From Methanomicrobia archaeon (lineage in GTDB: Archaea; Halobacteriota; Syntropharchaeia; Alkanophagales; Methanospirareceae), in the NCBI GenBank assembly GCA_016928455.1, contig JAFGKP010000123.1, positions 1-36,470 on the forward strand: 36,470 bases of DNA. The letters run 5' to 3'. This document shows positions 12,638-36,245 of this stretch, in pieces. The number at the start of each line of letters is the position of its first letter. Position 1 is the stretch's first letter. The notes under the pieces are model-generated. The model worked only from the letters and a program-made list of their open reading frames with translations, was not told the origin of the DNA and ran no database searches. The position numbers were made by a program, and so were the translations under genes.

Positions 12638-15600
12638 ATGAAGATGACTGCATCATGGTCGAAGAAAGGCAAGGTGGTGTGGGGGTTATTTGCAGTTGTG
12701 CTGCTTTTCACGAGTGTATTCGCTGCGCTGGCCGCACCGGATTTTGAAAGCGCGGAACTATCCGCATCAGGCGTGCCTGAAGCCCCGACGCGAATTCCCC
12801 GGACAGTAGATAGGGCTCATTCATCTGTTATTGCGCCAGCGCCTTCTGTTAGCTATGCTACAGCCACTATTTCAGAAGCGTCTGAATTCGTGCCTGGCGA
12901 GGTAATTGTTAAATTCAAGCAGCATGTACGATTCACGATCACACAACAATCGGATGGGATCGTTACCACAGGGATTAGATCACTAGATGCACTGAACACG
13001 CGCTATAACGTTATGGAACAGACAAACGTGTTTGAATCCGCAGAAAAGTACGTTTCGGCAGAAATCCCGGATCTTACCACTATTTACGTACTCACTTTTC
13101 CGCAAGACGCTGATATTCTCTCGATTATTACTGAGTATCAGAAGGACCGGAATGTTGAATATGCCGAGCCAAATTATATCAGAAAGGCGAGTGCCATCCC
13201 GAATGACCCTGTTTATCCTGGTCAGTGGGCACACCAGCTTATGTGGTCAGAGCAGGCATGGAACATTACACGGGGAAATAACGACGTTGTTATTGCGATT
13301 ATTGATACCGGTGTTGACTGGAATCATCCTGACCTTGCGGCAAATATATGGACAAATCAGGGCGAACTACCTGTAAACGGGATAGATGACGATGGCAACG
13401 GTTTTATTGACGATATTAGGGGCTGGGATTTCGTTGATACAGACGATTTGTCATGTGATGATGTTGATTGTTCTGACAGAGATAATGATCCCATGGATTT
13501 TGATGGCCATGGCACGCATTGTGCAGGGATAGCGGGCGCGGTAACTGACAATGGCATTGGCGTCGCGGGCATGGCCTGGAATTGCTCGATTATGACTGTT
13601 CGTGCTGGCTACCGCGCAGGTACTACTGCGTATTTAGAGGATCTTGATATAGCTGCTGCGATAGTATACGCAACGGACAACGGCGCGGATGTTATCAGTA
13701 TGAGTTTTTATGCTCCTGCTGTTTCAAACGTACTCCAGGATGCAATAACTTACGCAACTGCGAATGGGCTCGAATATGAACTAGGCGATGCTTCTACAAA
13801 CGGCATTGTATTCGTGGCTGCGGCGGGAAATGATAATTCAGACAGTATCACGTATCCCGCGGGTTATGATGACGTTATTGCGGTTGCAGCCACCAATCAA
13901 AGTGACGGGAAAACGGATTTTACGAGTTATGGCTCATGGGTAGATGTTGCTGCGCCCGGTTTTGACATACTCAGCACCTATTTCGATGACGCGTATGAGG
14001 TACTGTGCGGAACCTCGATGTCAACCCCGTACGTTGCAGGTTTGGCAGGACTTATTCTCTCAAAGAACCCGAGTTTTACACCGGACGAGGTAACCTCAAT
14101 CCTGCACAGTACCACAGATCCCGTAACCGCTTCCGAGTATATAGGTATTGGCAGGATAAACGCTTACAAAGCGCTTCAAATCAACTCGATACCCATAGCA
14201 ACGTTAGATCCGTCACTGGATGATGCAAAGGTTCGCGGTAGTATTGGCATTATCGGCACTGCTGCAGGCGCACATTTCCAGAATTACACGGTGGAGTACG
14301 GTGTGGGGATTTATCCGACGAGTTGGACAGCAATAACCGCATCCACCACACCTGTTATTAACGACACTCTCGCAACATGGTATGCAATCCCAGGAACAGT
14401 AAGCATCAGATTACGTGTAACAGACACTTTTGGTACCACAAGTGAAGATCGAGTTGTTATACATGCATCGTCAGGTAGCGCTGTAAGTTATGTACCAGAC
14501 AATTTTACAACAATTCGAGAAGCAGTAGTTGCCGCATGGGACGGAGACACGATCATCGTGCGTGATGGCACGTACACCGAAAACGTAGATGTAACCGTGA
14601 ATAATCTTACGATTCGGTCAGAGAACGGTTCTGCCCTTTGTCTTGTGCAAGCAGCAAATGCAAACGATCACGTGTTTGAGGTAACAGCAGATAATGTCGT
14701 CATCCGTGGATTCACGACAAAGAATGCAAAATACCCAAAGGCGGGCGTGTATCTTTCAGGTGCTAAGTACGGTGAAGTTGCAGATAACACTGTGTCAGGC
14801 AATTACCACGGTATTTATCTTTCTTCTTCGTGCTACAATAACTCTCTTACCAACAACACTGTCCAGAACAATTACTATGGCATTCGCCTGTATTCTTCGA
14901 GCAACAACAACCTGACGAACAACACAGTCAACTCGAACATTTACGACGGCATTAAGCTATCTTATTCGAGCAACAACAACTTGATGGGCAACACGGCCTC
15001 GAACAATGACGACGGTATTGGGCTGGGCTATTCGAGCAACTACAATATTCTGACTGACAACATTGTCACGAACAACGACGACGGCATTGGGCTGTATGCT
15101 TCAAGCAACTACAATATTCTGACAGGCAACACCGCCACCTCAAATACTAACTGCGGCATTTACCGGTCTTCTTCAAACAACAACCGCATTTATAATAACT
15201 ACTTCAACAACACGAATAACGCCAGGGACGATGGCACCAACGTCTGGAACATCACGCAGACCGAGGGCAGGAACATACTCGGCGGTCCCTATTTGGGCGG
15301 CAATTACTGGAGCGATTATAACGGCACCGATGCAGATGGCGATGGGCTCGGTGATACGCCGTATGATATCCCCGGCGGCACGAACAAGGATTACCACCCA
15401 TTAGTAACGATAGTGGCACAGCACCTATTTGATACGGGGAAGGGCGACTATCCGAGCCTCGCGGGATTACATACTGGTACAATTAAGCTAACGCAAACGG
15501 TCACGGTATCCACACTTTACACGTACCCCTGCAACGGCACCGGCGGGCATACCGAATATGTTAAACTTTGGAGAGGCTCGGAAGTAATCGCTGAGAAGAC

Positions 15601-15844
15601 GTGGAACGGCTACGTGGGTGACTGGTATAACCGCTCATTCGACACCTCGTTCACGATCTACGCGGGCATGACCTATAACTACACCATTCGCACGAGTTCG
15701 TATCCGCAGATCATCCATAATAGCACACTACTCACCGATAACGGCTGGATAACTTGCACTGGGTTCACGGATGCGAATGGTCGCAGGTACGATAACTGGA
15801 TACCTGCGATACGACTGTGGGCAGATCAGGGAGGGGAGCGTTGA
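12638..15844 (+). CDS. Secreted subtilisin-like (S8) serine protease with NosD-type right-handed beta-helix and C-terminal beta-sandwich-like domain
   Basis: Signal peptide; I9-like propeptide; triad motifs AIIDTGVDWNHPDL, DGHGTHCAGIAG, GTSMSTPYVAGLAG; then repeated NNNLTNNTVxxNxxDGIxLxYSSN units; C-term HLFDTGKGDYPSLAGLHTGTIKLTQTVTVSTLYTYPCNGTGGHTEYVKLW. Confidence 0.92.
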   Translation: MKMTASWSKKGKVVWGLFAVVLLFTSVFAALAAPDFESAELSASGVPEAPTRIPRTVDRAHSSVIAPAPSVSYATATISEASEFVPGEVIVKFKQHVRFTITQQSDGIVTTGIRSLDALNTRYNVMEQTNVFESAEKYVSAEIPDLTTIYVLTFPQDADILSIITEYQKDRNVEYAEPNYIRKASAIPNDPVYPGQWAHQLMWSEQAWNITRGNNDVVIAIIDTGVDWNHPDLAANIWTNQGELPVNGIDDDGNGFIDDIRGWDFVDTDDLSCDDVDCSDRDNDPMDFDGHGTHCAGIAGAVTDNGIGVAGMAWNCSIMTVRAGYRAGTTAYLEDLDIAAAIVYATDNGADVISMSFYAPAVSNVLQDAITYATANGLEYELGDASTNGIVFVAAAGNDNSDSITYPAGYDDVIAVAATNQSDGKTDFTSYGSWVDVAAPGFDILSTYFDDAYEVLCGTSMSTPYVAGLAGLILSKNPSFTPDEVTSILHSTTDPVTASEYIGIGRINAYKALQINSIPIATLDPSLDDAKVRGSIGIIGTAAGAHFQNYTVEYGVGIYPTSWTAITASTTPVINDTLATWYAIPGTVSIRLRVTDTFGTTSEDRVVIHASSGSAVSYVPDNFTTIREAVVAAWDGDTIIVRDGTYTENVDVTVNNLTIRSENGSALCLVQAANANDHVFEVTADNVVIRGFTTKNAKYPKAGVYLSGAKYGEVADNTVSGNYHGIYLSSSCYNNSLTNNTVQNNYYGIRLYSSSNNNLTNNTVNSNIYDGIKLSYSSNNNLMGNTASNNDDGIGLGYSSNYNILTDNIVTNNDDGIGLYASSNYNILTGNTATSNTNCGIYRSSSNNNRIYNNYFNNTNNARDDGTNVWNITQTEGRNILGGPYLGGNYWSDYNGTDADGDGLGDTPYDIPGGTNKDYHPLVTIVAQHLFDTGKGDYPSLAGLHTGTIKLTQTVTVSTLYTYPCNGTGGHTEYVKLWRGSEVIAEKTWNGYVGDWYNRSFDTSFTIYAGMTYNYTIRTSSYPQIIHNSTLLTDNGWITCTGFTDANGRRYDNWIPAIRLWADQGGER
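14770..15200 (+). repeat. Asn-rich NosD/parallel beta-helix coding repeats
   Basis: About 23-24 aa imperfect repeats (NNTVSGNYHGIYLSSSCYNNSLT / NNTVQNNYYGIRLYSSSNNNLT / NNTVNSNIYDGIKLSYSSNNNLM / GNTASNNDDGIGLGYSSNYNILT / DNIVTNNDDGIGLYASSNYNILT). Confidence 0.85.
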
Positions 15845-20914: not shown

Positions 20915-21310
20915 ATGGCAGTATTAGTAGATAAAACGGGGCGCATCGTCGCGACACATGCCATAACGCTCCACGGGCATTATGACCCTGAGCGCTGGGA
21001 TAGTGATACTGTAAGCGAGTTCATAGCAGAGAAGATGCAGCTCTTGGAGGATAAAGCTGATATAGAGCTATTACAGATTGATGGAGATAAGATAGAGGTA
21101 GTTGTCTACGTTTCCGAGCCTGATAAGCCGCCACATACTGTAGAGAGTTATGCGTTCTTCTGGATGATGAATCATGACATAACCCGGGAGAACGGACTAT
21201 TCGTGGATACCATTCTTGTTACTGAGTGTGAGGTTGAGCACAGTCTGTATATTGTGGTGGGGCACTATAAAAATAAGAATAAAAACAAAAATAGATCAGT
21301 ACATGAGTAA
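20915..21310 (+). CDS. Conserved hypothetical protein, copy A (131 aa)
   Basis: MAVLVDKTGRIVATHAITLHGHYDPERWDSDTVSEFIAEKMQLLEDKADIELL...; near-identical paralog at 24602-24973. Confidence 0.75.
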   Translation: MAVLVDKTGRIVATHAITLHGHYDPERWDSDTVSEFIAEKMQLLEDKADIELLQIDGDKIEVVVYVSEPDKPPHTVESYAFFWMMNHDITRENGLFVDTILVTECEVEHSLYIVVGHYKNKNKNKNRSVHE

Positions 21311-23188: not shown

Positions 23189-23683
23189 TCACACGACGAC
23201 CGTCCACTGGAGCACCTGGCCGCCGGAGACGGAGACGACGCTGATACGATCTCCGCTTTTGAGCTCAGCGCCCGGTGCGAGGAGTAATTCGAGCTCATCG
23301 GCGATCTCAAAATCAGGCTTCGAGATCGACCCGCGGTTCAGGGTCGCGTTACCCGCGTAGATCGCGCCGTTGATCCGAATCTCGAGGTTCTCACAGACCG
23401 TCTCGTTCAGGACGCGCTCGTCGGTGGGCTGGAAGGCGTTGGAGAGCGTATCCCCGCCCATATGCACGATGGTGACCTGATCAGAACCGGGCTTGGCACC
23501 CTCGATCATGATGTTGACCGAGTTCACCCTGAGTGCGGCATGCAGTATCCCCGCTGCGTACGTTGCGAGCATGGCCGCGATGATAATGACCACCACGATC
23601 ATCAGCAGCTCGCCGATTATCGGGCTCACCGCACGATCATCTTTGAGCATCTCTTTCCACCTCCGTATCACTATTCTAGCCAT
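23189..23683 (-). CDS. Archaeal type IV pilin N-terminal domain protein
   Basis: MARIVIRRWKEMLKDDRAVSPIIGELLMIVVVIIIAAMLATYAAGIL, class III signal-like motif plus hydrophobic helix; internal ATG chosen. Confidence 0.83.
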   Translation of the reverse strand: MARIVIRRWKEMLKDDRAVSPIIGELLMIVVVIIIAAMLATYAAGILHAALRVNSVNIMIEGAKPGSDQVTIVHMGGDTLSNAFQPTDERVLNETVCENLEIRINGAIYAGNATLNRGSISKPDFEIADELELLLAPGAELKSGDRISVVSVSGGQVLQWTVVV

Positions 23684-23933
23684 CAGCAATATATACTTTG
23701 CGCTCGCGCACATGTTAGTCCCACCCAAACAGTTGCGCACGTTTGACAGCATTAAGCGAAGCGGAGAAGCTATACACTAACCATATAACACGTTTACCAG
23801 AACGTTTTTCACTCTAGAAAGTCTTTCATCTCTGTAGGTGGTGTTCCAAGAGGTGCTCGTGCTTGTTGCGACCAAGCCTAGCGGCCCGATCAGGGCGACG
23901 ATGCCGGGTGGTGTTACGAGTGGCACTTCTATT

Positions 23934-24450: not shown

Positions 24451-24601
24451 TGTACGGTCCACTACCAGCGTCACTCGGTGCTCGTCTGCGCGGAGCGGAC
24501 GGAACCGCAAAGCTTAAAACCACAGCAATTAAAGTGGTTTCTGAACAGGGTTGAGAGAGCTTCAGTCGAGGCGTTTTTGCTCACGCTGTTCGTTCCTGAA
24601 G

Positions 24602-24973
24602 ATGGCAGTATTAGTAGATAAAACGGGGCGCATCGTTGCGACACATTCCATAACGCTTCACGGGCATTATGACCCTAAGCGCTGGGATAGTGATACTGTA
24701 AGCGAGTTCATAGCAGAGCAGCTGCAGCTCTTGCAGGATAAAGCTGATAGAGAGCTATTACAGATCACGGGAAATACGATAGCTGTAGTGGTCTACGTTT
24801 CCGAGCCTGATAAGCCGCCATATACTATTGAGAGTTATGCTTTCTTCTGGATGATGACCCATGACATAACCCGAGAGAACGGCCTCTTTGTGGATACCAT
24901 TGATGTTACTGAGTGTACGGTTGAGAACAGTCTGTATATTGTGGTGGGGCACTGTAAAACAAAACAAGAATAA
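24602..24973 (+). CDS. Conserved hypothetical protein, copy B (paralog of 20915-21310)
   Basis: MAVLVDKTGRIVATHSITLHGHYDPKRWDSDTVSEFIAEQLQLLQDKADRELL..., about 17 differences over about 118 aligned residues. Confidence 0.75.
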   Translation: MAVLVDKTGRIVATHSITLHGHYDPKRWDSDTVSEFIAEQLQLLQDKADRELLQITGNTIAVVVYVSEPDKPPYTIESYAFFWMMTHDITRENGLFVDTIDVTECTVENSLYIVVGHCKTKQE

Positions 24974-25375: not shown

Positions 25376-25876
25376 CTACGATACAGTGATCCGCTGCAGG
25401 ATGTTGTCACTGGGCGTATGCAGGATAACAATGCTATCCCCATTTGTAAGATTGACGAACGTCAAATCGAGCTGATCTCCGGGAGCAAAACGAGCATCCC
25501 AATTAGCAGAGGCATTATTCCAAGCTACACTGTTTTTTGATAATGCACTTAGCTGGTTGCTACCACATGCAACACCATTTAGTCTTATCTCAAGGTACTC
25601 CCACTTATCAGTCATATTCGTTTTTTCAGCAGAGTCAAATGCATCGGTGATTGTATCACCGCCGTGATGGAATACCGTTACGGGGACAGTTCCGCCCGCA
25701 CTAACGCCTTCAACGACCATTGCGGAACTGGGCGCTTTATTCACGCCGCCGATGATCCCGTAGGCGAAGGCCGCAACAACTGCGGCAATGATCACGACGA
25801 TCGCGATCATCATGATCACACCGATGACCGGTGATACTGCTTTATCGTCCTTCTTCATGCTTCTTTTGGTTGTCAT
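25376..25876 (-). CDS. Archaeal type IV pilin N-terminal domain protein
   Basis: MKKDDKAVSPVIGVIMMIAIVVIIAAVVAAFAYGIIGGVNKAPSSAMVVEG; strong ribosome-binding sequence aggaggtgat upstream. Confidence 0.9.
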   Translation of the reverse strand: MTTKRSMKKDDKAVSPVIGVIMMIAIVVIIAAVVAAFAYGIIGGVNKAPSSAMVVEGVSAGGTVPVTVFHHGGDTITDAFDSAEKTNMTDKWEYLEIRLNGVACGSNQLSALSKNSVAWNNASANWDARFAPGDQLDLTFVNLTNGDSIVILHTPSDNILQRITVS

Positions 25877-29217: not shown

Positions 29218-29907
29218 ATGCCACGCAGCAGCGGTCACTCGTTCACCGGTCGCCCGGCTCGTGCCGGGCTGCTCATCAGTAGGATGCTCACGGCCGTCGT
29301 GCTCGTCCTGATTCTGGCTGCGGATGCTTCGGCCGCAGCTGTAACGAACGGCGAGTCCCCGCTCGCCGACGAACCGGGTGAGGATATCGCGACGGTTGCC
29401 TTTACGTCTCCGGACGACCCGCAGCTCGCGATCTTACGCGACTTCCGCGATACCGTGTTGCTCACCAACCCGGTAGGCGCGTTCGTATGGACCACGTATA
29501 CTGCAGTGAGCCCGCCGATCGCGGCGGTGCTGCTGGAGCGCGAGCACCTGCGTATCGCGACCCGAGTCTTACTGCTCACGCCGGTGATCTATCTCGCGGC
29601 GCTGTGTATGAACACGATCGCGCTGCTCGCCTTTATCGTGCTCATTCTGCTCGTGCTCGTGAGCCTGCGTCGTTATCTCAAGCCCATCCTCACGGGCGTC
29701 CTCTACGGCGTCCTGGCCGGTGCCGCGTTTGCGGTCGCTGCGGTCACGCTCGGCGCGCTCGGCCACGAGCTGCCGTACTGCGCGGTGATTGCCGCGTATC
29801 TGCTGCCCGTGATCGTTCCTGTCGGGCTTGCCGTCTGTCTCATCACCTGGATCGAGTCGCAGGCGCGCCCGCGTGCGGCCCCGCGTCTGAGGCCACGACT
29901 GTATTGA
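29218..29907 (+). CDS. Multi-pass membrane protein of unknown function with signal-like N-terminus
   Basis: LISRMLTAVVLVLILAADASAA, then several hydrophobic segments (VLLLTPVIYLAALCMNTIALLAFIVLILLVLVSL etc.). Confidence 0.7.
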   Translation: MPRSSGHSFTGRPARAGLLISRMLTAVVLVLILAADASAAAVTNGESPLADEPGEDIATVAFTSPDDPQLAILRDFRDTVLLTNPVGAFVWTTYTAVSPPIAAVLLEREHLRIATRVLLLTPVIYLAALCMNTIALLAFIVLILLVLVSLRRYLKPILTGVLYGVLAGAAFAVAAVTLGALGHELPYCAVIAAYLLPVIVPVGLAVCLITWIESQARPRAAPRLRPRLY

Positions 29908-30328: not shown

Positions 30329-30346
30329 GAAAGCTTTATATAGGCA
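30329..30346 (+). promoter_or_regulatory. Archaeal BRE/TATA promoter for the pilin-like operon
   Basis: ggaaagctttatataggc about 55-65 nt upstream of the ATG at 30397. Confidence 0.6.
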
Positions 30347-30396: not shown

Positions 30397-32637
30397 ATGA
30401 GTCTCAAAATCCGGAGGAATAGAACCAGGAGCACAAACAAGAGCATCCTTCAGGACACGCGTGCGATCTCTGAGGTATTAGGTGCTTTGATCATTATGGC
30501 TATTCTGCTTTCCGCATCGTCTATCTATCTCGCGCAGCAACTGCCTGAATGGACAAAGGAGTATGAGGCGAAACATGCAGCTGCAGTGCCACATGACTTT
30601 GCCACGCTCGAGGCTAATATCGAGCGTGCGGTATTGAGCGAAGATCCAACCACCGTAACGTCTACAACGGTTGGTATGCTCCCTGAAGGCGTCCCGCTGA
30701 TTGGCATGTACCCAGCCGGTGGCACGCTCCAGTTCAACCCGAATCAAGAAACGTTCGAATGCATCGCCGCCACACCAGATGATTCAGCGGTTTCTGGCAG
30801 TGGCTATTATTGGAATAACACTACCGATTGGAATACCTTCAATGATACGTATCATGTAGTTGTCACTACGTCAAAAGCAGAGTTGGAACCTGCGAAGAGA
30901 GGAAATTTAAATATTACGAAAAATCAGTCGCTATCCGGGGAATATTATCGTGATACGTTCAGTGTGCGAAACAACTCGACACTGACCATTGATGGGCGGT
31001 TAACGATCCATGCTCGGACTATTTTCGTTGAAGAGGGATCAAGCATCAATGCGGACGGCAAGGGCTGGTCCGGTGGGCTGGGCAACTCACCTGGAGATAA
31101 CGGGACTGGTGTGGGCGGGGGACTGGGCGGGAATCAATCAAAAACGGGAAATGCAGGTGGTGATGGTGGAGGAGGCGGGGGCTGTGGCGGTAATGGCGGT
31201 AATGGCGGTGAAAATCAGAATTCGGGCGGCAATGCCTCTGATTTGCTAAACTACTTAGGACCCAGTTGTGCCGGAGAGGTGATGGGCTCTGGCGGCGGAG
31301 GTGGTGGTGATGGTCATGACAGTGAGGGACAAATGATAGCTTCATCCGGCGGTGACGGCGGCAGTGGCGGGGGTTATGTCTGCTTAGACGCCGCTTTTAT
31401 TGACATTAGCGGCAACATCTCCGCCTGCGGCGCGAACGGTGAAGGTAAGTTGCAATATGATGAGAATGAATCCTACCGAGGTGGTGGCGGAGGAGGCGGT
31501 AGCGGAGGCTGGATAAAAATCATTGGCGATAACGTGAACATTACTGGAGTCCTCGTTGCCGCGGGTGGCAATGGAGGTGAGAGCCCCGCAGGAGATGGTG
31601 GGGGTGGGGGTGGGGGTGGAATAGTTGAGGTATTTTACTATAGCCCCTCACAGATCAAGGAGAGCCATATAGATGTGCGCCCTGGGAGAGGTGGAAATGG
31701 TTCTCTGCCAGGTAATAATGGTACTTCGGGGATAAAGGATCCCCCAAAAAACCAACCATATAACTCCACCCTTTTTCACTATGAGTCTGGTTATCTCGTC
31801 TCGAATATGACCGAAGTCCCGGACCAAGAGAAGGTTGGGTACGATACGAACAGCTCACGTACTCGCTACGGTAATCTGACGTATCGTGCGGATGTGCCTG
31901 CGGGAACGGACATCGTGCTCAAGGTGCGCACCTCTATGTATGATGACATGCACGATGCAATGCCCTGGGAGACCTGCCCGCCGGTCGCAAACGGAACGGC
32001 CATCTCTGGTCTCATCTCTGTCTCCGACGGGCACCGGTACATCCAGTGGCGCGCGGAGCTGCTCACCTTCAGCCCCGAAATCACACCCCGGCTCCACTGG
32101 GTCAATATCACTTATGACTATGGCGAGCCCGTGCTCGCGCGCACTTCCGGCACGATCAGCTACGCGAGCCAGTACCTCTATTACCCCAATTATAACCTCG
32201 TCTATGCACATGGCGCCACGATCAGGGAGCAGTATGGCCGGGCCTTCATGCTCTTCCCACCGCCGGTCTTCGTCGAGGCTCATGAGACGGGAAGCGCGCT
32301 CACCATCACGGCGATTGATATAACCGGTGATGAGTCCTCAGTCAGCGGCCGTATGAGCGCTACCGTCCAAACCGCGCCACAGGGCGCTGCGCTGCTCAAG
32401 CCCGGCCTGAACTATGCGAATATTACCCTTAATCTGACTACCGCGTATCGTAGCGCATGGGTGGATTGGTTCACCGCGACCTGCAACGACGCGGGCTTAT
32501 CACATGGGACAGAACCAGGACAGTACAACATCACCATTACACCAGATGCGCTCCAGGTCATCTTTTATGGCAACGAGACGAAGCCCGTGAAGTTGTGGCT
32601 CAAGCGTGCAGAAGCCAGGGTAAAACTCACTGAATGA
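30397..32637 (+). CDS. Large surface protein with type-IV-pilin-like N-terminus and glycine-rich domain, paralog 1
   Basis: MSLKIRRNRTRSTNKSILQDTRAISEVLGALIIMAILLSASSIYLAQQLPEWTKEYE...; Gly-rich segment; LKVRTSMYDDMHDAMPWETCPP...HRYIQWRAELLTFSPEITPRLHWVNITYDY; ATG at 30397 chosen because the TATA box lies inside the longer ORF. Confidence 0.88.
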   Translation: MSLKIRRNRTRSTNKSILQDTRAISEVLGALIIMAILLSASSIYLAQQLPEWTKEYEAKHAAAVPHDFATLEANIERAVLSEDPTTVTSTTVGMLPEGVPLIGMYPAGGTLQFNPNQETFECIAATPDDSAVSGSGYYWNNTTDWNTFNDTYHVVVTTSKAELEPAKRGNLNITKNQSLSGEYYRDTFSVRNNSTLTIDGRLTIHARTIFVEEGSSINADGKGWSGGLGNSPGDNGTGVGGGLGGNQSKTGNAGGDGGGGGGCGGNGGNGGENQNSGGNASDLLNYLGPSCAGEVMGSGGGGGGDGHDSEGQMIASSGGDGGSGGGYVCLDAAFIDISGNISACGANGEGKLQYDENESYRGGGGGGGSGGWIKIIGDNVNITGVLVAAGGNGGESPAGDGGGGGGGGIVEVFYYSPSQIKESHIDVRPGRGGNGSLPGNNGTSGIKDPPKNQPYNSTLFHYESGYLVSNMTEVPDQEKVGYDTNSSRTRYGNLTYRADVPAGTDIVLKVRTSMYDDMHDAMPWETCPPVANGTAISGLISVSDGHRYIQWRAELLTFSPEITPRLHWVNITYDYGEPVLARTSGTISYASQYLYYPNYNLVYAHGATIREQYGRAFMLFPPPVFVEAHETGSALTITAIDITGDESSVSGRMSATVQTAPQGAALLKPGLNYANITLNLTTAYRSAWVDWFTATCNDAGLSHGTEPGQYNITITPDALQVIFYGNETKPVKLWLKRAEARVKLTE

Positions 32638-32678
32638 AGTGATAATATGGAGAACCTAATGGGAAAAGAACAGAGGCT

Positions 32679-34886
32679 ATGACAGCATTCTGGAAGAGCG
32701 AGCAGGCCGTTTCTGAAGTGGTGGGCGTGCTCCTGATAATGGCTATTCTCCTCTCTCTGAGCGCGATCTTCTTCTCGCGAGAGGTTCCGGCATGGACGAA
32801 GGAGTTCGAATATCAGCATGCCGCAAAGGTCCCGCAGGACTTCGCGGCACTCGGCGCACAAATTGATATGGCGCTGGCGAGCGAAGACCCAGCGACACCC
32901 TTGTCTACTGCTATCGGGATGACCCCCGGTACTGTCCCGCTGGTCGGCCTCCAGGCCGCCGAAGGCACGCTCACCTTCGAGCCTGATGAAGAGACTTTCG
33001 AATGTATCGCCACCACGCTCGAAGCAGCAAATACCTCGGGGAACGCCTACTGGAATGATAGCTCTACCTGGACTAAATTCGAGAAGTACCATGTGAAAGT
33101 GACCGATTCGGGCGTACGGCTGGAATCCGACGCGGGAGAATATAAAGACCCTATTGAAACGAACGGGACACTCTCGGGGGAATATTATTGCGATCGCTTC
33201 ATCGTCCGGAATAATTCGACACTGACCGTACCGGGACGGTTAACGATCCACGCCATGAACATTTTCGTTGATGAAGGGACTCTAATTACCGCAGATGGCT
33301 GGGGCTATGCGGGTGGGGCGGGCAACAAGCCGGGGTATAACGGGAGTGGAACAGGTGGAGGGAAAGGTGGAGACGAAGGTGAAAATAAGAAAGAAGGGGG
33401 TTACGGCGGCGGTGGTGGGGGATGCGGCGGAGAAGGGGGCCGTGGGGGGAATAATACCGACTCAGGTGGCAGTGCATCGCATTTGAACGATTTGATGGGC
33501 TCTGGCGGCGGTGGCGGTGGCGACTGGAAGGATCCTAATGGTAAGATCGTACTCTCATCAGGTGGTGCCGGTGGGTCGGGTGGGGGTTATATACAGTTAG
33601 ATGCGGCCACTATTGATATTCGGGGTATTATCTCCGCTAATGGATCAGACGGAGTAGGTGCTCAATTATCTAAGGACAATAACTTTTTTGGTGGGGGTGG
33701 CGGTGGTGGTAGCGGCGGCCTGATCATCATCAAAGGTAATGTCGTCAATATTACCGGTATGCTCTACGCCATGGGCGGTGATGGGGGCAGTAATGACGAT
33801 AAAGGAACCGGCGGTGGTGGTGGCGGGGGCGGTGAAATCCATGTATATTACGATAGCAGTATCTTTCCAAATGACGTAAAAGCTGACCATATCAATGTAG
33901 GTTACGGTAATGGTGGCAGCAGTGGTAAGGAGGGGGCGGAGGATGGGAAGAACGGCACGCCCGGATCACCCGTGGTAAATCAATCCCTTTACTTTCCGAG
34001 TATCTTCTACTACAGCTCAGGGTATATCGTCTCGAACATGATCAACGTCTCAGACCAGGGGCAGGTCGGGTACGATACGAAGAACAGCACCCTCATTCGC
34101 TACGGGAATGTAACGTACGGGTCTGAGCTTCCGCCTGATACTGATATCGTGCTGAAGGTCCGCACCTCGATGTGTCCTGACATGCACGATGCGCTACCCT
34201 GGGAAGACTGCCCGCCCGTTGCCAATAACACGTACATCCCGAACCTCCCCTCGGCCTCTGACGGGCACCAGTACATCCAGTGGCGTGCTGAACTGCTCAC
34301 CTTCGATCCGCGCATCACGCCCGTGCTCTCGTGGGTCAATATCAGCTACGAGTATGGCAAACGACCGGTGCTCGTTACGTCATCCGGGCATCTGGACTAC
34401 AAGAGCCAGTATCTCTATTTCCCCAATTATCAACTCGTCCACACACACGGCGGCACGATTAAACTTCAGGATGACGAGAGTTTCATGCTCTTCGCACCGC
34501 CTATCTTTGTGAGCACTGATGATTCAGGAATATCGCTCAAAATCACCGCGGTCAACCTTACAGGTACTAAAAGAACGCTCAGCGGACGGCTCAGCGCCAC
34601 CGTGCAGGCCTCGTACCTTGAGGACACCCTGCTCACCAACGGCTTGAACTTCGCGAATATCACCCTGAATATCACGACCAACTATCCCGCCGCATGGGCA
34701 GACTGGTTCAACACGACCTGCAAAGACGCGGGAATAGTGTATGGAAATGCTTCCGGGCAGTATAACATCACCTACAAGAGCACCGCCGCACCAGATACGC
34801 TCCAGATTGTCTTCTACGGCAACGAGACGAAGCCGGTGAACCTGTGGTTGAAACGATCCCGTGCGAAGGTCGAAATAACGAGCTGA
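32679..34886 (+). CDS. Large surface protein with type-IV-pilin-like N-terminus and glycine-rich domain, paralog 2
   Basis: MTAFWKSEQAVSEVVGVLLIMAILLSLSAIFFSREVPAWTKEFEYQHAAKVPQDFAALGAQIDMALASEDPATPLSTAIGM...; same domain order as paralog 1. Confidence 0.9.
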   Translation: MTAFWKSEQAVSEVVGVLLIMAILLSLSAIFFSREVPAWTKEFEYQHAAKVPQDFAALGAQIDMALASEDPATPLSTAIGMTPGTVPLVGLQAAEGTLTFEPDEETFECIATTLEAANTSGNAYWNDSSTWTKFEKYHVKVTDSGVRLESDAGEYKDPIETNGTLSGEYYCDRFIVRNNSTLTVPGRLTIHAMNIFVDEGTLITADGWGYAGGAGNKPGYNGSGTGGGKGGDEGENKKEGGYGGGGGGCGGEGGRGGNNTDSGGSASHLNDLMGSGGGGGGDWKDPNGKIVLSSGGAGGSGGGYIQLDAATIDIRGIISANGSDGVGAQLSKDNNFFGGGGGGGSGGLIIIKGNVVNITGMLYAMGGDGGSNDDKGTGGGGGGGGEIHVYYDSSIFPNDVKADHINVGYGNGGSSGKEGAEDGKNGTPGSPVVNQSLYFPSIFYYSSGYIVSNMINVSDQGQVGYDTKNSTLIRYGNVTYGSELPPDTDIVLKVRTSMCPDMHDALPWEDCPPVANNTYIPNLPSASDGHQYIQWRAELLTFDPRITPVLSWVNISYEYGKRPVLVTSSGHLDYKSQYLYFPNYQLVHTHGGTIKLQDDESFMLFAPPIFVSTDDSGISLKITAVNLTGTKRTLSGRLSATVQASYLEDTLLTNGLNFANITLNITTNYPAAWADWFNTTCKDAGIVYGNASGQYNITYKSTAAPDTLQIVFYGNETKPVNLWLKRSRAKVEITS

Positions 34887-34913
34887 AACGAATGAAGGGA
34901 TTCTGAGAGCTAT

Positions 34914-36245
34914 ATGAGTATGCGACGCCGATCAGAACCAGGAACCGAAGCCGCCCAGGCGTTCGTCGTGGGGGCGATCCTCATCACCGGGATCGTGCTT
35001 ACCACGTCCTTTATCTACCTCTCCATCAACACGCCGGCAGCGACCAAAGCGGGCGAGTATCAGCATGCCGCCGCGGTCGCTGCGGATTTCAATACGCTCT
35101 GCTACAGCATTACCGCTTTGAGAGCTTCAGCATCGTCTGGTGCTTCACTCTCCGTGCCGATCCGCATGAGCCCTGCGAAAGAGTCGCTCATCGCGCTTCC
35201 CGCAGCCGCGGGCACGATCAGCTTCTCACCCGCTACCGAGCAGGTGAGCATTAGCGTCAATGGCACGGGCTCGCCTCCTGCTGGGCCCTGGACGGACGAG
35301 GAGTTCACGCATACCGACCGCTTTAAAGTCGAGATAGCGTCAGGCAACGCCACGCTCGCCAAGCCGCGATACGCACGGGGCTATCTGGAATCGAACCATA
35401 GTACTACACCGGGCAAGATCGGGGGGAAGGATCTGGGAAGTGCGAACATTACGTACGAGAACTTCTCGTGGAACACCAGTCTTCCAGCAAACACGCGGAT
35501 CGTCTTGAAGGTGAGAACGGACATGTTCCCGGATATGAGGCATGCTAAGAACTGGAGCGACTGCCCGGCAATCGAATCACAAGACGGGTTCAATAACAGA
35601 AGTCTCGCGAAAATCGCATCGGTCTCACCGGGGCATCAGTATGTGCAGTATCGCGCGGAGCTCAGCACCTGGGATCCCGATTTAACGCCCACGTTATGTA
35701 ACGTGAGCATCTCTTACAACTTCTCACAACCAGAGGTTGTCCTCGCGAGCTCTTCCGGCTCGATCAGCTTCACGAGCAACCACTGCTATCTCCCGGAGCA
35801 TACCCTCAGCTATGCAAGTGGCGCGGTAATCAAGAAGCAGCAGGACAATGAGTTCGTGCTCGGGAATTTCAGCATCTCCGCCGCTAAAGCAGGCAGTACT
35901 ACAGAAATCCGCATCTCGCTCTTTGACCTGACCGGAACCTCGGTCCCTGCGCAGAGTGGCCAACCAACGACCATCATTAAAATATATCGCGATGACTACG
36001 GACTCATCTCTGATTCGTTCTATTATCCCAATCTCACGCTGAACATCACGACGAATTATACCCAGGCCTGGTCAGACTGGCTGAATAAGACCCTTGACGC
36101 GGCTGGATTGGTCCGCAGCTCTGACTCTGACTACAATCTCTCGAGGCCTACTAATAACTCGGTACGGGTCGTGTTTTATGGCCATGATGATGGTGTTAAG
36201 TTGTATCTCGATAAGACCACCGTTCAGGTACGCATACCAACATAA
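34914..36245 (+). CDS. Shorter paralog 3 of the pilin-like surface proteins, lacking the glycine-rich domain
   Basis: EAAQAFVVGAILITGIVLTTSFIYLSINTPAATKAGEYQHAAAVAADFNTL...; LKVRTDMFPDMRHAKNWSDCPA...HQYVQYRAELSTWDPDLTPTLCNVSISYNF. Confidence 0.88.
   Translation: MSMRRRSEPGTEAAQAFVVGAILITGIVLTTSFIYLSINTPAATKAGEYQHAAAVAADFNTLCYSITALRASASSGASLSVPIRMSPAKESLIALPAAAGTISFSPATEQVSISVNGTGSPPAGPWTDEEFTHTDRFKVEIASGNATLAKPRYARGYLESNHSTTPGKIGGKDLGSANITYENFSWNTSLPANTRIVLKVRTDMFPDMRHAKNWSDCPAIESQDGFNNRSLAKIASVSPGHQYVQYRAELSTWDPDLTPTLCNVSISYNFSQPEVVLASSSGSISFTSNHCYLPEHTLSYASGAVIKKQQDNEFVLGNFSISAAKAGSTTEIRISLFDLTGTSVPAQSGQPTTIIKIYRDDYGLISDSFYYPNLTLNITTNYTQAWSDWLNKTLDAAGLVRSSDSDYNLSRPTNNSVRVVFYGHDDGVKLYLDKTTVQVRIPT

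Follow-up and report, generated by a model that had tools for sequence, protein, structure and literature searches.

Three adjacent archaeal genes for probable minor type IV pilins with modules inside the pilin head

What kind of proteins are encoded by three large, related genes lying at the end of an archaeal contig, and how could they be carried on the cell surface? The window, i.e., the whole stretch of DNA analysed (36,470 nucleotides), is contig C37 of an assembly of 1.51 Mb in 154 contigs (75% complete), and the contig ends 225 nt 3' of the last of the three genes. Related loci are found in Methanophagales (ANME-1) and in 'Methanomicrobia archaeon LH_S14'; judging from these relatives, the host genome presumably belongs to the ANME-1 group of methane-oxidising archaea. 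The genes, designated A, B and C, and their promoter element are as follows:

30334..30342, + strand: TATA-like promoter element CTTTATATA, the sole exact match in the 36-kb window (chance mean 0.16)
30397..32637, + strand: gene A, 746 aa, DUF7289 pilin split by a glycine-rich and an extracellular module
32679..34886, + strand: gene B, 735 aa, architecture as in gene A
34914..36245, + strand: gene C, 443 aa, split pilin, glycine-rich region absent

A sequence-only reading had described three consecutive plus-strand genes behind one clear promoter box, and this layout is borne out: the frames are open at these positions with gaps of 41 and 27 nt, and the CTTTATATA box lies about 55 nt before the ATG of gene A. 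Co-transcription of A, B and C is predicted from the gene spacing. Proteins A and B are 58% identical, and C is 36–39% identical to A and B over the aligned columns. Directly upstream of the operon (29218–29907, +) lies a membrane-protein gene whose product has a CFI-box-CTERM domain (NCBIfam E 1.1e-16); no gene of this type was noticed beside the homologous operons at loci L023 and L037.

DUF7289 (PF23960) is matched above the Pfam cut-off of 27 bits by A (28.2 bits) and B (27.8 bits) and below it by C (21.6 bits), the match in all three being limited to about profile positions 108–204. An ordinary-pilin profile was built from 17 uninterrupted DUF7289 pilins of relatives (229–287 aa). It matches A, B and C each in two ordered pieces with an insert between them (totals of 82, 71 and 45 bits, respectively; the best of 600 shuffled copies reached 4.5 bits):

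30436..30666, + strand: A, N-terminal half of pilin, residues 14–90 (profile positions 3–79, 29 bits)
32101..32532, + strand: A, C-terminal half of pilin head, residues 569–712 (profile 94–239, 50 bits)
32685..33104, + strand: B, N-terminal half of pilin, residues 3–142 (28 bits), with the SEQA/VSEVVG helix (here and below the slash marks the cleavage-type site)
34329..34733, + strand: B, C-terminal half of pilin head, residues 551–685 (profile 92–224, 41 bits)
34965..35141, + strand: C, N-terminal half of pilin, residues 18–76 (profile 16–74, weak, 5.7 bits)
35706..36134, + strand: C, C-terminal half of pilin head, residues 265–407 (profile 95–226, 38 bits)

Since two ordered pieces are found per protein, each protein is one pilin interrupted after the long N-terminal helix region; at the level of profile matching, the split architecture of A, B and C is established. 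The interruption of the head comprises about 480 residues in A and B and about 190 in C. When the C-terminal core was compared, profile against profile, with that of five ordinary DUF7289 members, the probability was 97.6%. In B, the N-terminal half has a Pilin_N match (E 0.027) and an archaellin/pilin N-terminal NCBIfam match, both below cut-off; the NCBIfam scan of A and C gave no match. The pilin reading proposed earlier is thus supported by the DUF7289 match and by the recovery of both pilin halves. The accompanying picture of ectodomains borne on pilin-like stems needs revision: the pilin part is present, but the ectodomains interrupt the head midway and do not sit atop a stem. A 483-aa protein of the sister family (L102), in which the N-half of the pilin scores just 4 bits, may be a shorter split pilin.

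A charged leader is followed by an uncharged hydrophobic segment directly after a cleavage-type site, which favours prepilins. Prepilin cleavage depends on G, A or S at −1 and, in archaea, on a charged residue at −2 (PMC4371748). A has the class III site TRA/ISEV and a hydrophobic helix. The class III signal was checked with an author-made regular expression, not with FlaFind itself; its strict form is found in A (R-A/I-S) and in most intact homologues, and only its relaxed form in B (Q-A/V-S) and C (E-A/A-Q), the latter finding counting against the pilus reading. The [RQ]A[IV]SEV[LV]G and (P)xWTKE motifs, previously ascribed to the whole set, occur in A and B; C has AAQAFVVG and PAATKAGEYQHAA.

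Structure prediction gave a 65-residue N-terminal helix (residues 3–67 in B, 8–72 in C) followed by beta strands, at poor confidence (mean pLDDT of 54.5 for B and 46.5 for C, with alignments of 9–11 rows). No PDB match under E 0.001 was obtained in a fold search with the model of B. The models place a long helix before strands but are too poor to demonstrate pilin-like packing, which counts against the pilus reading. Seven viral-library fold matches of the B model under 0.001, including giant-virus PA14 and collagen-like proteins, were rejected as a resemblance to the glycine-rich coil in a low-confidence model (TM 0.15–0.23 on the query). A sequence search of PDB gave just glycine-rich linkers and chance matches, and a phage origin was rejected, no tblastn match being found in phage records.

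The inserts are composed of two kinds of modules:

30904..31761, + strand: A, glycine-rich beta-coil region (putative), about residues 170–455, with coil motifs and the four glycine runs
31765..32121, + strand: A, inserted extracellular beta module, about residues 457–575, aligning with the modules of L104 and L105
33141..33998, + strand: B, glycine-rich beta-coil region (putative), about residues 155–440
33999..34358, + strand: B, inserted extracellular beta module, about residues 441–560, placed by alignment
35361..35732, + strand: C, inserted extracellular module, about residues 150–273, placed by alignment

The first part of the A and B inserts, a glycine-rich region of ~280 residues (15% Gly overall, four runs of 6–8 Gly each), is the largest feature of these proteins and was absent from the sequence-only description. 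Coil-like motifs such as IQLDAATIDIRGIISANG occur twice each in A and B, against a shuffled mean of 0.01–0.03, and parts of the region are the best-predicted section of the B model (pLDDT 80–90). A beta-coil with glycine-rich loops could be formed by this region.

The other module (~120 aa) makes up the insert of C alone and coincides with the previously noted 'LKVRT...QWRAEL...TPxL' core. This core (LKVRTxM...QxRAEL...TPxL) is indeed present in A, B and C, but it is not specific to them, being found also in the secreted proteins of L104 (1114 aa) and L105 (together with DUF2341), neither of which has a pilin N-terminus. Neither Pfam nor PDB offers the 120-aa module a match of known function; its copy in C gives a weak Glucodextran_C match below cut-off (E 0.0085). 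Searches of A, B and C yielded no ligand-binding domain with a known function, which counts against a reading as adhesive pilins. A C-type pilin of 670 aa at L108 (1635–3647, −) bears two copies of the module, so the insert can grow through duplication. N-glycosylation sequons number 27, 23 and 17 in A, B and C (shuffled means 7.6, 6.7 and 4.9), an excess which fits a glycosylated surface protein.

The genome contains one prepilin peptidase gene (C129:9653–10417, Peptidase_A24 and Arc_PepC_II), and contig C130 carries one PilB-type ATPase gene (T2SSE) and two TadC-like platform genes (T2SSF). Neither finding named beforehand as speaking against pilins, a genome devoid of peptidase and ATPase with an ordinary membrane anchor predicted, or an already characterised family of the same architecture, was encountered, which supports the pilin interpretation. 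The location of the operon on C37 and of the machine on C130 means that they are not linked in this genome, and this counts against the pilus reading. A weak T2SSE match within the window belongs to a helicase. Candidate major pilins are encoded in the window outside the operon, 4.5–7 kb upstream of gene A, and are the only two Pilin_N genes of the assembly:

23189..23752, − strand: archaeal type IV pilin (Pilin_N), candidate major pilin, 53.6 bits (cut-off 25.2)
25376..25876, − strand: archaeal type IV pilin (Pilin_N), candidate major pilin, 61 bits (cut-off 25.2)

Other genes of the window include one for a 1068-aa secreted-type protein in which a subtilase (Peptidase_S8) is joined to NosD/beta-helix repeats (12638–15844, +). 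Two closely similar small proteins (MAVLVDKTGRIVATH...) are encoded at 20915–21310 and 24551–24973 (+), an apparent local duplication.

In a family survey, 24 of 51 genomes matched at 1e-10, 19 strongly. T2SSF was present in 17 of the 19 strong-match genomes versus 19 of the 32 others (Fisher p 0.02, uncorrected for kinship and based on hand-copied tables); these latter 19 possess T2SSF without a strong match, so proteins of the A/B/C type are not essential to the machine. Across 397 genomes of the phylum, the whole-core matches among those listed all fall within the window's own family, and the listed matches outside it cover only one half of the core. The nearest sister gene lies 267–2103 bp from TadC in 8 of the 17 T2SSF genomes (ANME-1) and at 8.4 kb in genome G001; at L042 a sister gene is also near a prepilin peptidase gene.

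In the tree, A and B form a pair (100/97) and C is a separate paralogue. The TadC-linked copies all group in a clade of their own (88/61); A/B (100/99) and C (100/100) fall into two others. Clade I operons, including A-B-C, are unlinked to the machine in the genomes examined, and G001 has both kinds. TadC adjacency was accordingly dropped as a property of the A-B-C operon: the linked copies being in a separate clade, linkage is evidence for the family and bears on this operon only indirectly. The survey of neighbourhoods for pilus genes, proposed with the sequence-only reading, thus gave a divided answer, positive for sister genes and negative for the operon itself.

Several family loci show irregularities of their own. 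A glycine-rich pilin gene of G001 (L036, 8795–11123) occupies two overlapping frames (439 and 370 aa), owing either to a frameshift or to an error of assembly; L024, L042 and G059 show breaks of a similar kind. At L038 and L025, PIN-like toxin genes are located between successive glycine-rich pilin genes, beside the PilB/TadC locus.

The best explanation, with a probability of about 0.6, is that the three proteins act as modular minor type IV pilins: the peptidase would process them and a pilus would display them, with adhesion as the likeliest purpose. They would be made as prepilins, inserted into the membrane through the N-terminal hydrophobic helix and cut by the prepilin peptidase on the cytoplasmic side. 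The single PilB/TadC machine could then incorporate them in a type IV pilus, or in a short pseudopilus, of which the small Pilin_N pilins would be the main subunits. The pilin head would bear the extra parts in a surface loop, the glycine-rich beta-coil and the beta module in A and B and the beta module alone in C. The bulky, sequon-rich domains would thereby be exposed on the surface or tip of the filament, where adhesion to cells, matrix or minerals is the most likely role, by analogy with the modular pilins of Streptococcus sanguinis (PMC9934059) and with a lectin-like pilin of a same-class relative (L045).

A sub-form of this explanation, non-exclusive with it and advanced tentatively, is a tip complex in which the filament begins with C, which lacks both the glycine-rich module and an acidic residue among the first mature residues, and is capped by A and B, as with PilA and PilB/PilC of S. 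sanguinis (PMC9934059). In its favour are that S. sanguinis model, the three separate clades of the tree and the same order, glycine-rich genes followed by one short C-type gene, at L023 and L037. Against it, the acidic residue near position 5 is often missing in archaeal pilins (PMC4371748). The proteins could alternatively be prepilin-like but stay in the membrane, the helix, processed or not, anchoring a large ectodomain associated with the cell wall or S-layer, with no filament. The very large insert, the separation of clade I operons from the ATPase in every genome examined and the occurrence of the 120-aa module in secreted proteins without a pilin part all suit such an anchor. Retention of both pilin halves is more than an anchor needs, and sister genes adjoin PilB/TadC loci in 8 genomes, which makes this alternative unlikely.

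A highly improbable alternative is that A, B and C are subunits of a pilus whose main use is electron transfer or secretion, linking ANME-1 with a sulfate-reducing partner. Pilin or archaellin genes are expressed by ANME-1 and relatives in syntrophic consortia (PMC9539880, PMC10322722), which favours it, but A, B and C lack any CxxCH heme motif, which makes direct conduction of electrons through hemes unlikely, and a surface spacer or adhesin fits the glycine-rich insert and the glycosylation sites better. Returning to modular minor pilins, a bolder extension, and distinctly a long shot, would be that ANME-1 pilins with modules inside the head form glycine-rich spikes, i.e., recognition or spacing proteins which hold the archaeon to its sulfate-reducing partner or to the matrix and whose copy number and modules vary by lineage.

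The pilin family and modular pilins as such are already known. In the open-access literature, with most subscription papers outside it, no account was found of pilins whose head is interrupted by modules, or of these ANME-1 proteins, nor any mention of DUF7289. A, B and C are specific, testable candidates for the binding of ANME-1 to bacterial partners; in a large comparative study of ANME genomes, pili and further extracellular structures were deferred to experimental work (PMC9012536). Insertion inside the head represents a second route to a modular pilin, as against addition at the end. The analysis also sheds some light on DUF7289, a family without known function whose Pfam model captures just the back half of A, B and C.

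Among known systems, the ordinary DUF7289 members are the nearest to A, B and C. An N-terminal pilin helix, an all-beta head, frequent duplication, variable length and an association with PilB/TadC are common to both, and the C-terminal half of A, B and C scores at or near the curated cut-off. The ordinary members are uninterrupted (about 230–290 aa), whereas in A, B and C the head is split by 190–480 residues. DUF7289 is probably the same group as the arCOG02911 minor pilins, which are about 250–550 aa long and prone to duplication (Makarova 2016, PMC4858521).

Relatives examined outside ANME-1 mostly carry their extra modules behind a pilin domain that is not interrupted. L044, from a distant relative with halophile-type pilin genes, has three pilins of 658–874 aa in which such a domain precedes other repeats (DUF7305 and weak Bactofilin in the one pilin scanned). 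Like A, B and C, these pilins of 650–870 aa are several and adjacent, have a beta-repeat part and stand beside a small-pilin cluster; unlike in A, B and C, the pilin domain is whole and the module lies behind it, not within the head. Large pilins are also co-regulated with pilB4-C4 of H. volcanii (PMC4371748). In L045, an uninterrupted DUF7289 is followed by the lectin-like Laminin_G_3 domain and a Pilin_N pilin by DUF2341, both encoded beside the ATPase and TadC genes.

PilB and PilC of S. sanguinis (PMC9934059) are likewise large minor pilins with extra modules, but their modules are placed at the C-terminus and those of A, B and C inside the head, for which binding is proposed by analogy. 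An adhesive role, as considered here, has been proposed for PilY1-type tip adhesins and archaeal DUF2341 proteins (PMC4858521). DUF2341 accompanies the 120-aa module in L105 and is found on a pilin in L045, whereas A, B and C, pilin-type proteins themselves, gave no match to DUF2341.
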